From positions 1 through 52,457 of the forward strand of contig CALAMQ010000010.1 of assembly GCA_937925815.1 (NCBI GenBank): DNA of 52,457 nt, given 5' to 3'. Made by a program: the position numbers and the translations under genes. Numbering within the stretch: the first letter of the stretch is position 1; each line of letters begins with the position of its first letter. Origin of the DNA: an uncultured Granulosicoccaceae bacterium (lineage in GTDB: Bacteria > Pseudomonadota > Gammaproteobacteria > CALCKW01). The notes under the pieces are model-generated. The model made no database searches, was not told the origin of the DNA, and was given only the letters and a program-made list of their open reading frames with translations. This document shows positions 14,895 through 20,358 of the stretch, piece after piece.

Positions 14895-17690
14895 CTACCA
14901 GTCGCGCCGTGACCAGTGCCCCGCACCGTCGCGAACCAATTCATAGCGCGGCCAGAACGCCGTGTCGCTCACCACCGCGACAACACCGCGCTGGCCGTTG
15001 ATCGAGTAGGTCGAAAAGCGCACGGTATCACCCGCCTCGACATCACCAAGCAGGCGCTTGTAATCCTCGATTGTTGCAACCGGCTGGTTGTTGATCGCGG
15101 TGATCAGGCGGTTGCGGTACAGGCCATCGCCGAGCGGCGGTGAACCGCTGGCAACGTCACTGATGTATACACCGTCTTCGGTGCCGACCATGCGCGCGCG
15201 GACTTCGCGCGTGAGCGCTTGCACCGACACCCCGTTCCAACTGGCCACATGCGCAACGCCCATGCCGTCAAGTTCGTGCGGTTGGTAATCGACCTGCTGC
15301 TCAACCCCGTCACGCAAGAGTGTCAGGGTGACCGTATCGCGCTGAGTCGCCAATTCGAGGTCGCGCAAGCTGTGAACGGCTTCGTCATCAACGGCCAACA
15401 GCAAGTCGCCGACCTCAATGTCGGCTTGATCGCCCGCTTCAAAAACCTGGCGCGCATAGAGCACCCGAGGGTGGCGCGGATTCAATGCCGTGAGCCGAGC
15501 CAAGGCGTCGCCTTTCAAGCCGAGCTCACGCGCGTCTGACAAAGGCAGGTAACGCCAGTCAACATCGACCGCTCGGTACGGTTCGCCGCCGCGAAAATCC
15601 TCGAGCGCATCTTTGACCATATCGGCTGGAAAACCCCATTCACTCTCGGCGACTTCGCGCCCGTCCTGAAACGCAAAGCTGGTCCAGAAAGCGTGTACAA
15701 CACCGTCCTCAGTGACCAGCACACCACCCAGACTGGGCGGCGCGTTCTGCAAGTCATAAGCGTCAAAAGCGGTCTGGGTGAAGCGCGGCAAATTAGAGCG
15801 GCTGAGCACCACGGTGCGCGGTGTAGGCACACCGACGTCACGTGACATCACCTCGCCGCCGAGGCCGTAACCGATCAACGTTGTGGCCGCGACATTGACG
15901 CCGGGCTCGGCACTTAACACAGGCGGCTCAAGCGCCGCGACCGGCAGCATTTTCGGGTCGATGCGCAAGAAAGCGATGTTGTGAACTGGGTGCAGATAGA
16001 CCACTTCGGCCGGCAATCGAACACTGCCAAATACCGTGACCCAGGCCTCTCCCAACGATTCTGTGACGGTGTTTCGGTCGACCAGAACCAAGCCCTCTGC
16101 TGGCGAGACCAACAGCCCTGTGCCGCGAAAATTGCGCGCGTAGGTGTTCGAAATCAAATGCGGCGCATCGAAGTCCACGCGCACCAGCACGTTGCCCAAG
16201 CGATTGAGCAGCGGATCATCGAAATCAATCGCGTCGAGCGGCTCAACTTCGTCGGTCGCACTCTCAGCGACGCCTTGCAGAGATTCACAGTGCCAGTCGC
16301 GCTGACCGTCTCGGCGTTCGCACACCACCTCTCGATACCACTCTCGGTCGACGATCAACGTGGTCAACTCTGTTGTGTACTCGCGCTGGGGCACGACAAA
16401 TCGCACCACCCAGCGCTCGCCGTCTCTTGCCGTGGTTAGCAGCGGGAGTAGATCGTCAACGGTATTGATAGCATGATCGTTGACGCGAGTGATCACAGCG
16501 CCAACAGGCATGTTGGCTCGCTGAAACATAAAGCGCGTGTCAGCCAGCGTGACGCCGCGCCTTGGCAAGTTCATGGTGCGCGCTTGGTGCAGCGTCATGT
16601 CATGCAAGACCGCGCCACCGAATTCGACCAAACGGTCTGGAATTGCAGCGTGTAAATCTGACACAGCAACCTCGTTCTGCACGCGTTCACCCTGACGGTA
16701 CAGCGTTGTCATCACGCGCTCACCGACGGCGCCATCGAGGCTCGCATCCAATTGTGCGAAGTCAAAAACCGGTACGCCATTGATATCGAGCAACACGTCC
16801 CCCGGTTGCAAAATGCCGTCGGCGACACCCTCGGCAAACACCTGACTGACCACCAGCATGCCGTTACTCTGAGGATCCGAGTCCCGCACCCGTGCGATGT
16901 CTCCATCGGGCACACCCAATCGCGAAACTGTGCGAAATGATTGGTGCTTAAACACGGTTTGCAATCCGCCGCGTGCGAATAGATCCCCGCGCTGCAAGTG
17001 CTCCAGAGCGTCACGTATGCGCCACAGAGGAAGGAAGAAACTGCTCGCAGTGGTTGAAGCGGCGCCTGCATTCAAAGCGACCACATCGCCGTCGATATTG
17101 ACCACAGGAGAACCACTCGAGCCGCCCGAGGTGCCAGAGGCGGCTTGATAGTAGAAGGTATTGAAATCGCTAAAACCGTAGCGACCGTAGCGCGGTGCCG
17201 CACGGTCCAAGCGCGCGATGGTGCCGGCAAGGATGGAGAGCTGCTCACCGCCATCCGAACCGATCACGCGGATGTCGAGGCCGCGACTTGCGCCTTCGGG
17301 TTTGAGCCTGAGACTGGGCGGTTGATTGAATTTGAGCTCGGCCGGGTCGTATTGAAAGAAGCCGTAGTCATGCACCGGGTCACGGTACAACGGCACGAGT
17401 TCGACTCGCTCCATGTTTTGAAAGGTTGCGAAGGCGCGAACTGGACCGGCACCTATGACGTGGCGGTTGGTCAGCAATATGCCGCGCTCGGCGTCGACCA
17501 CAAAACCAGTCGCAGACGTACCTCCCTGAGGGTCATCGTCAAAAGCACGTTGGCGCGAGAGCGAAATTGAGACCACCGAATCGGCGACACGGCTGACCGT
17601 ATCTGACCATTGCGCGGTGCTGTTGGCGCGCGCACTCGGCGAGATGAGCGATACGGCAAGGAATAAAACGCAAGCGAAGGCTGGACGCAC
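14895..17690 (-). CDS. Double-domain HtrA-like protease, Nma111 type
   Basis: 931 residues from GTG 17690, giving a signal peptide (MRPAFACVLFLAVSLISPSARA) and periplasmic location; a GTG at 17741 would add 17 residues without a good signal n-region. The first trypsin-like domain is complete: His in TNRHV (residue 77 from this start), Asp in HDYGFF (108), Ser in GGSSGSPVV (192). PDZ-like segments follow (GMLVVSQVF...GILQPGDVLLDINGVPVFD). A second trypsin-like domain (GLLVSPAEGLVLVDRNTV, VVYLHPVHNIAFLRID, PPSLGGVLV) lacks the His and Ser, and is followed by more PDZ-like sequence (GDLLLAVDDEAVHSLRDLE; GDGLYRNRLITAINNQPV). This layout and the GGSSGSP and HPVHN motifs match fungal Nma111 rather than DegP. 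Confidence 0.88.
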   Translation of the reverse strand: MRPAFACVLFLAVSLISPSARANSTAQWSDTVSRVADSVVSISLSRQRAFDDDPQGGTSATGFVVDAERGILLTNRHVIGAGPVRAFATFQNMERVELVPLYRDPVHDYGFFQYDPAELKFNQPPSLRLKPEGASRGLDIRVIGSDGGEQLSILAGTIARLDRAAPRYGRYGFSDFNTFYYQAASGTSGGSSGSPVVNIDGDVVALNAGAASTTASSFFLPLWRIRDALEHLQRGDLFARGGLQTVFKHQSFRTVSRLGVPDGDIARVRDSDPQSNGMLVVSQVFAEGVADGILQPGDVLLDINGVPVFDFAQLDASLDGAVGERVMTTLYRQGERVQNEVAVSDLHAAIPDRLVEFGGAVLHDMTLHQARTMNLPRRGVTLADTRFMFQRANMPVGAVITRVNDHAINTVDDLLPLLTTARDGERWVVRFVVPQREYTTELTTLIVDREWYREVVCERRDGQRDWHCESLQGVAESATDEVEPLDAIDFDDPLLNRLGNVLVRVDFDAPHLISNTYARNFRGTGLLVSPAEGLVLVDRNTVTESLGEAWVTVFGSVRLPAEVVYLHPVHNIAFLRIDPKMLPVAALEPPVLSAEPGVNVAATTLIGYGLGGEVMSRDVGVPTPRTVVLSRSNLPRFTQTAFDAYDLQNAPPSLGGVLVTEDGVVHAFWTSFAFQDGREVAESEWGFPADMVKDALEDFRGGEPYRAVDVDWRYLPLSDARELGLKGDALARLTALNPRHPRVLYARQVFEAGDQADIEVGDLLLAVDDEAVHSLRDLELATQRDTVTLTLLRDGVEQQVDYQPHELDGMGVAHVASWNGVSVQALTREVRARMVGTEDGVYISDVASGSPPLGDGLYRNRLITAINNQPVATIEDYKRLLGDVEAGDTVRFSTYSINGQRGVVAVVSDTAFWPRYELVRDGAGHWSRRDW

Positions 17691-17829
17691 TGTGTGGCTC
17701 TCTGTGGAGTGGCACACCGCAATGGGCTCACGCCGCACCACAGTGCCCAGTTATACTCGTTGTTGGAATGGGCGTTGCTGTGCCTGTACATGCAATTCCC
17801 GTACTGCCACCGACTCTGGACGCAAAATC

Positions 17830-19148: not shown

Positions 19149-19739
19149 TCAAGCGCGCATCACCGTGGTCACGTGTGAGAGGGCTTGCAGTCTCGCGATT
19201 GGATCGCTCATCTCAAGCAATTGCTGTTTGCCCGCGAGGTTGATCGGCAGGCGTTCAACCAATCGGCCGCCAACCCACGCGGCGTCATCGCACCATGCGT
19301 GCTCGCCAGTGGGCCAGTGTTGAGTGGTTTCAAGCACGTCTTTGAGCAACGCGACAGTGTCTGCATGCACCTCTGGCACCACCACAGTGGCTTCATCGGG
19401 CAGCGGTACAACGGTCGCCACCACCAAATTATCGGCTTGAACGCGCGAGCCAATAACTTGCAACTTGCGATGCCCACGCACAACCACTTGCAAGGCGCCG
19501 GCGTCACCCGCCTCCCAGTCGACGACGGTGGCTTCCGTGACCACGTCGCAGGGACTGGCTGCCGCGCCCACTTCATTGCCCTCGGCGATGGCGGCAATGG
19601 CGAACGGTGTGTCAGTGCGCATCGCACGCGCCACCATGTCGGTGTAGCGCACTTCAAATACCCGAAGCGGCAGATCGCCACCGGGAAAGAGCACCGCATC
19701 GAGTAAAAAAAGTGGCACTTCCATCGCGTCAATCCGCAT
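19149..19739 (-). CDS. LON-substrate-binding-domain protein
   Basis: 196 residues from ATG 19739, overlapping the ubiX 3' end by 11 bases; ATG 19724 is an alternative. It consists only of the N-terminal substrate-binding domain of Lon (VPLFLLDAVLFPGGDLPLRVFEVRYTDMVARAM, then GALQVVVRGHRKLQV) and has no ATPase or protease part. Such stand-alone proteins are common in proteobacteria, with unknown partners. It is the last gene of the yaeQ-CoA transferase-ubiX unit. Confidence 0.88.
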   Translation of the reverse strand: MRIDAMEVPLFLLDAVLFPGGDLPLRVFEVRYTDMVARAMRTDTPFAIAAIAEGNEVGAAASPCDVVTEATVVDWEAGDAGALQVVVRGHRKLQVIGSRVQADNLVVATVVPLPDEATVVVPEVHADTVALLKDVLETTQHWPTGEHAWCDDAAWVGGRLVERLPINLAGKQQLLEMSDPIARLQALSHVTTVMRA

Positions 19740-20358
19740 CGTCCAACCCCCACCGAAGCGACAAGTTCTGCTCAACATCGAGCTGGTCGAGCACCCGCGC
19801 GACCACAAAATCCACGAGTTCATCAATGGTCTTTGGACGCGTGTAAAACGCGGGGTTGGGCGGCATGATCACAGCGCCCGCGCGCGCAAGGCGCAACATA
19901 TTCTCAAGGTGGATGGTGTTAAACGGCATCTCACGGGGCATCACAATCAATTTGCGACCCTCTTTGAGCACGACATCCGCCGCCCGCTCAATCAAATTGT
20001 GGCAGGTGCCAGCCGCCATTGAAGCGAGTGTGCCCGTGGTGCAGGGGCACACCACCATGGCCTCGGGCACACCTGAGCCGCTGGCGACCGGTGCGGTCCA
20101 CTGGTCTTGGCCGTAGACATCGAGCTCGCCCGCGTCGCCACCGAAATCAGCGAGCAGCTTCTCGCGTATCTCCGCGGCGCGCGCAGGCAGGCTGATATCC
20201 GTGTCCATGCCGATCACCACTTGCGCGGGCTTGGACACCATCAAATGAACCCGTATGTCAGCGGCGAGCAGGCACTCGAGCAACCTGAAGCTGTACTGCA
20301 CGCCAGAGGCGCCAGTGATTGCGAGCGCAATCCTGCGGCGTTCGGTCGCGCGGCTCAC
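19729..20358 (-). CDS. ubiX: Flavin prenyltransferase UbiX
   Basis: Makes prenylated FMN, the cofactor of the decarboxylase UbiD in ubiquinone synthesis. 209 residues. Signatures: LAITGASGVQYSFRLLECLL, MVVCPCTTGTLASMAAGTCHNLIERAADVVLKEGRKLIVMPREMPFNTIHLENMLRLARAGAVIMPPNPAFYTRPKT. The ATG overlaps the CoA-transferase stop by 4 bases, so the genes are coupled. No ubiD is in the window. Confidence 0.96.
   Translation of the reverse strand: MSRATERRRIALAITGASGVQYSFRLLECLLAADIRVHLMVSKPAQVVIGMDTDISLPARAAEIREKLLADFGGDAGELDVYGQDQWTAPVASGSGVPEAMVVCPCTTGTLASMAAGTCHNLIERAADVVLKEGRKLIVMPREMPFNTIHLENMLRLARAGAVIMPPNPAFYTRPKTIDELVDFVVARVLDQLDVEQNLSLRWGLDDAD

Follow-up and report, generated by a model that had tools for sequence, protein, structure and literature searches.

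HtrA proteins that join a live protease domain to a dead one have been treated, in the literature searched, as plant and fungal. Plant Deg7, which belongs to HtrA clade III, has about 1,000 residues in the order protease, PDZ, PDZ, inactive protease, PDZ, PDZ; the inactive domain of AtDeg7 has been reported to mediate trimerisation, the same source leaving other Deg7 proteins open (PMC3473262). In the fungal branch, the PDZ_1 domain (PF12812) has been described (PMC5982838), the A. niger Nma111 peptidase carries the serine motif GXSXS (PMC7804941), and the triad residues of the N. crassa Nma111 orthologue are spaced by 31 and 83 residues (PMC3434108). Our literature search found no published catalytic residue number for Nma111. 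A 2018 study remarked that yeast Omi, rather than human HtrA, is the nearer relative of some bacterial proteins, with nothing further noted about them (PMC5982838). The live/dead kind of HtrA is therefore already known in eukaryotes, and the bacterial family presented here is little-studied: no description of it was found in the literature searched, and such proteins must already be in sequence databases, unnamed.

The window, i.e. the whole stretch of 52,457 nucleotides that was analysed, comes from an uncultured Granulosicoccaceae bacterium (contig CALAMQ010000010.1). Its minus strand carries a 948-codon open frame from 17741 to 14895. The likely start is a GTG at 17690 (codon 18); the upstream GTG at 17741 still lies in the open frame, and the start at 17690 is considered likelier since it yields a classical signal peptide, MRPAFACVLFLAVSLISPSARA/N, as an earlier note on this DNA had proposed. 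The encoded protein has the domain order protease, PDZ, PDZ, protease, PDZ, PDZ, and Pfam detects two matches each to Trypsin_2 and PDZ_1 (PF12812) and four to PDZ_2; PDZ_1 scores 70.8 bits against a cut-off of 28. The features are listed below, with residues numbered along the 948-residue frame.

14895..17690, minus strand: whole gene, with the likely GTG start at 17690
17622..17690, minus strand: signal peptide, residues 18-40, predicted by eye and by a hydrophobicity scan
16992..17609, minus strand: protease domain 1, active type, residues 45-250 (Pfam Trypsin_2 at 77-223; triad invariant in 82 rows)
17460-17462, 17367-17369 and 17115-17117, minus strand: domain 1 triad H94, D125 and S209
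16659..16970, minus strand: PDZ domain 1, residues 258-361 (Pfam PDZ_6/PDZ_2; model)
16347..16658, minus strand: PDZ domain 2, PDZ_1 type PF12812, residues 362-465 (Pfam PDZ_1 at 368-440)
16287..16322, minus strand: cysteine pair C474...C485 (invariance and neighbouring predicted strands)
15582..16229, minus strand: protease domain 2, predicted pseudoprotease, residues 505-720 (fold, Foldseek, profile alignment to domain 1, column counts)
16071-16073, 15978-15980 and 15732-15734, minus strand: former triad sites of domain 2, N557, N588 and S670
15273..15581, minus strand: PDZ domain 3, residues 721-823 (Pfam PDZ stretches; model)
14898..15272, minus strand: PDZ domain 4, residues 824-948 (weaker PDZ_1 at 15048-15248, E 1e-4; PDZ_2 at 850-911)

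A hydrophobic N-terminal segment is present in 100 of 101 bacterial rows of the family, the sole exception being a frame interrupted by a stop. The signal-peptide-like N-terminus supports export of the window protein and a periplasmic location. In two relatives (L116 and L117) the signal is lipobox-like (LTSC and LTAC), and the protein may be a lipoprotein in that lineage. The AlphaFold2 model of the protein, built from a 63-sequence alignment, has a mean pLDDT of 85 and a pTM of 0.82; confidence is low in the signal peptide and in two segments, residues 164-206 and 227-233, which we take to be the activation loops of domain 1. C474 and C485 are invariant in the same alignment and in 19 further rows of bacterial members, and in the model they lie on adjoining strands (472-475 and 484-487), which suggests that they probably form a periplasmic disulphide.

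Domain 1 contains the triad H94, D125 and S209 with spacings of 31 and 84 residues, and a serine motif, GGSSGSPVV, whose core GSSGS (residues 207-211) replaces the GNSGG of DegP. Across the first alignment, of 82 sequences, all three residues are invariant, and they are unchanged in 19 further rows, some of which are the same genes as the first 82. The complete His/Asp/Ser triad that had been read from the sequence is thus borne out, and domain 1 is, in its motifs, a complete protease with predicted catalysis.

In domain 2, the profile alignment sets N557 (in VDRNTV), N588 (in HPVHN) and the shortened loop with S670 opposite the domain 1 His, Asp and Ser motif, respectively. This loop, PPSLGGVLV, contains no GxSxG/S motif and falls four residues short of its domain 1 counterpart. 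Loss of the His and Ser had been noted before and holds, although that list was incomplete, as the Asp is gone too (N588, within the HPVHN strand). An intact domain 2 triad was found in no inspected family member. Where the His would stand, inspected members from Gammaproteobacteria mostly have N and those of a Myxococcota-type group mostly E; at the former Asp site, nearly all inspected members have N. Folded alone, domain 2 is predicted with an HtrA-like trypsin fold (pLDDT 88.7, pTM 0.88), so the structure check went in favour of a second protease domain and against a non-trypsin fold. In a Foldseek search of PDB, its best 50 matches are all chymotrypsin-fold proteases, nearly all HtrA/Deg, with E about 1e-8 to 1e-7 and TM 0.5-0.66 over the domain length; no solved relative with two protease domains was found in PDB. 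Among the 16 least variable of the 216 domain 2 columns are D555, R556, T558, H584, P585, H587 and N588, while the former Ser loop is variable across members. Conservation of the former His/Asp region alongside drift of the Ser loop suggests that domain 2 has been retained for a non-catalytic role, and the pattern is better matched by upkeep of a structural site than by decay. Two relatives, L118 (branch length 4.6 in the domain tree) and L119, have an extremely diverged domain 2, while their domain 1 retains GGSSGSP.

Profile alignment of residues 40-465 with residues 504-947 extends over 399 columns (E 2.7e-39), and its score of 291 exceeds those of the two halves against ordinary DegP-type proteins (265 and 219). 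Because the halves align end to end, the protein is, judging from these profiles, a duplicated DegP-like protease-PDZ-PDZ unit. Chance is excluded by the half-to-half E value together with the 141 relatives found in one scan of GTDB genomes. In a domain tree, domains 1, domains 2 and 23 ordinary Deg domains each make up one clade, indicating that the unit was duplicated, and the second active site lost, before the sampled bacterial groups split. With three such groups and no outer root, the tree allows any order, including whether domain 2 is closer to domain 1 or to ordinary Deg; the case for duplication therefore rests on profile scores and the collinear layout.

These proteins form a large and widespread bacterial family and are not a single-genome oddity. 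At E 1e-60, relatives are present in 4 of 4 sampled genomes of the window's family, in 22 of 321 genomes of its class and in 5 of 399 across the phylum. Around a Steroidobacteraceae strain they occur in 56 of 60 genomes. G402 is a MAG whose title names Myxococcota, and 69 of 237 genomes of its phylum have a relative. No member was found in 48 genomes of a small class of the same phylum as the window (the class of G013), or in 289 genomes of a further, larger class of that phylum, which by its size is probably Alphaproteobacteria; no relative was found on viral contigs. G530, of the same phylum as G402, has two full-length copies; in G612, also of that phylum, the second match is partial and lies in a long frame. 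The window genome also encodes ordinary DegP-type proteins, so the protein is not its sole HtrA.

In the window, the gene has as neighbours pgi, a UbiH/UbiF-family hydroxylase and an amino-acid N-acetyltransferase, which give no functional hint. Neighbourhood clustering, done with conservation-ranked frames, found no conserved partner gene pointing to a process. Upstream of the gene and on the same strand, the Steroidobacteraceae/Woeseiaceae loci (L040-L114) carry gcvT (42 of 79), gcvH (37 of 79) and gcvPA/PB (54 of 79). We take this proximity as shared gene order; glycine-cleavage genes were dropped as a conserved partner, being confined to some lineages and absent beside the gene in the window. 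A short protein encoded at 19149-19826 (minus strand) has a LON substrate-binding domain (PF02190) only, i.e. a stand-alone Lon N-domain.

The earlier note had compared the protein with fungal Nma111, and the likeness in domain order is upheld by published features. The window protein has the clade III layout, the length of about 1,000 residues, the domain 1 triad and the mutated domain 2 triad, and shares with fungal Nma111 both PF12812 and a GXSXS-type motif (GSSGS). Approximate, unverified copies of yeast Nma111 (995 residues) and Arabidopsis Deg7 (1,097) were used, and comparisons with them serve as leads and not as tests; the true lengths are 997 and 1,097 residues. The Nma111 copy scores 192 bits with PF12812 and aligns with the window protein over 926 residues (31% identity, E 1e-130), and the Deg7 copy also aligns along the length of the window protein. 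Compared with the bacterial family, this approximate Deg7 copy has about 62-63% identity in domain 1 and 33-37% in domain 2, with N at both former His and Asp positions of domain 2. Domains 1 and 2 of both copies fall inside the bacterial domain 1 and domain 2 clades. The signal peptide and the cysteine pair are missing from both, which fits proteins of the nucleus, cytosol or stroma. The match to the published features supports the window protein as a bacterial Nma111/Deg7-type protein.

In trees of the whole proteins, the two approximate copies branch, as a lead, beside the Myxococcota-type group, with support of 100/99 when included together and with SH-aLRT of 98-99 when each is included alone; the tree program gave a long-branch warning. 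Of the two roles once suggested for the protein, that of a periplasmic counterpart is sustained by the signal peptides of the family. That of a bacterial ancestor is plausible only, as approximate copies stand beside a branch other than the window's; if right, it points to the Myxococcota-type branch rather than to the window protein. We tentatively propose, with somewhat less than even confidence, that Nma111 and Deg7 descend from an exported, pseudoprotease-bearing bacterial HtrA of Myxococcota type and not from a mitochondrial ancestor. If true, the yeast “Omi/HtrA2 homologue” would come from bacteria other than the mitochondrial ancestor, and the signal peptide and conserved cysteine pair would have been lost on transfer into reducing compartments. 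A protomitochondrial origin of the fungal protein is also called into question by the lack of relatives in the 289 genomes of the class that is probably Alphaproteobacteria.

Considering all features, the protein is with good confidence an exported HtrA that arose by internal duplication of a DegP-like unit, has a structural pseudoprotease as its second protease domain, and represents a bacterial periplasmic branch of the Nma111/Deg7 type. Its most likely function is periplasmic protein quality control. Domain 1 would cleave misfolded periplasmic proteins presented by PDZ domains 1 and 2, while domain 2 and its PDZ pair would hold subunits together, a step modelled on plant Deg7 because of the reported trimerisation through the inactive domain of AtDeg7. 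Domain 2 might also bind unfolded chains as a chaperone. A rather unlikely alternative to the scaffold is a domain 2 that, as a pseudoprotease comparable to the MamO type, binds a ligand or metal or acts as a regulator, sensing a signal and switching domain 1 on. The near-invariant polar residues D555, R556, T558, H584, H587 and N588 could make a binding site, and the activation loops of domain 1 look flexible in the model; however, the conserved residues can be accounted for by the fold, and the only precedent with the window's layout, plant Deg7, points to oligomerisation.

Two further readings concern the layout itself. Independent duplications of DegP-like units in bacteria and eukaryotes, with a convergent likeness to Nma111/Deg7, are conceivable in so far as duplication of an HtrA unit is simple and the eukaryotic sequences compared are approximate copies, but we regard them as very improbable. 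PF12812, described in the fungal branch, is far over its cut-off in the window protein, the GXSXS motif and the triad spacing (31 and 83-84) agree with published fungal proteins, and the approximate copies show whole-length alignment and protease domains within the two bacterial clades. The thought that an ordinary DegP/DegQ has here gained an unrelated addition at its C-terminus could draw on domain 1 and PDZ domain 1, which match DegP and HtrA2 in PDB. It is refuted by the predicted fold of domain 2 and by the profile comparison, in which the second half, too, has the make-up of a protease-PDZ-PDZ unit, and the probability of this reading is negligible: domain 1 forms a clade apart from the ordinary Deg domains, the score with the Do family model (TIGR02037) is 116.2 bits against a curated cut-off of 416.2, and close relatives all share the six-domain layout. 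The duplicated HtrA with a structural pseudoprotease is the preferred reading. An exported bacterial family of this layout offers simple genetic and biochemical models for the role of the dead domain; it also makes the origin of Nma111 and Deg7 testable, and both may have arisen from within it.

In comparison with known systems, the protein agrees with the HtrA superfamily definition of a chymotrypsin-like protease followed by PDZ domain(s). DegP, DegQ and MucD are likewise exported and combine such a protease with two PDZ domains, so that each half of the window protein matches one DegP, but they have a single protease domain and a GNSGG-type motif. MamE and MamO work together in the bacterial periplasm, at the magnetosome, as a live protease and a protease-dead relative, although they are two separate proteins, of which MamO is described as metal-binding; the MamE model matches the window protein weakly (24 bits). 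Fungal Nma111/Ynm3, linked to apoptosis and heat survival, shares PF12812, GXSXS and a triad spacing of 31/83 (N. crassa) compared to 31/84, and differs in being nuclear/cytoplasmic without an export signal and, in the approximate copy, in having R at the former His position. Deg7 (AtDeg7) shares the published six-domain order and length; it differs in its location in the chloroplast stroma and, judging by the approximate copy, in its size of about 1,100 residues, in the longer linker that precedes domain 2 and in having neither a signal peptide nor the C474/C485 pair.
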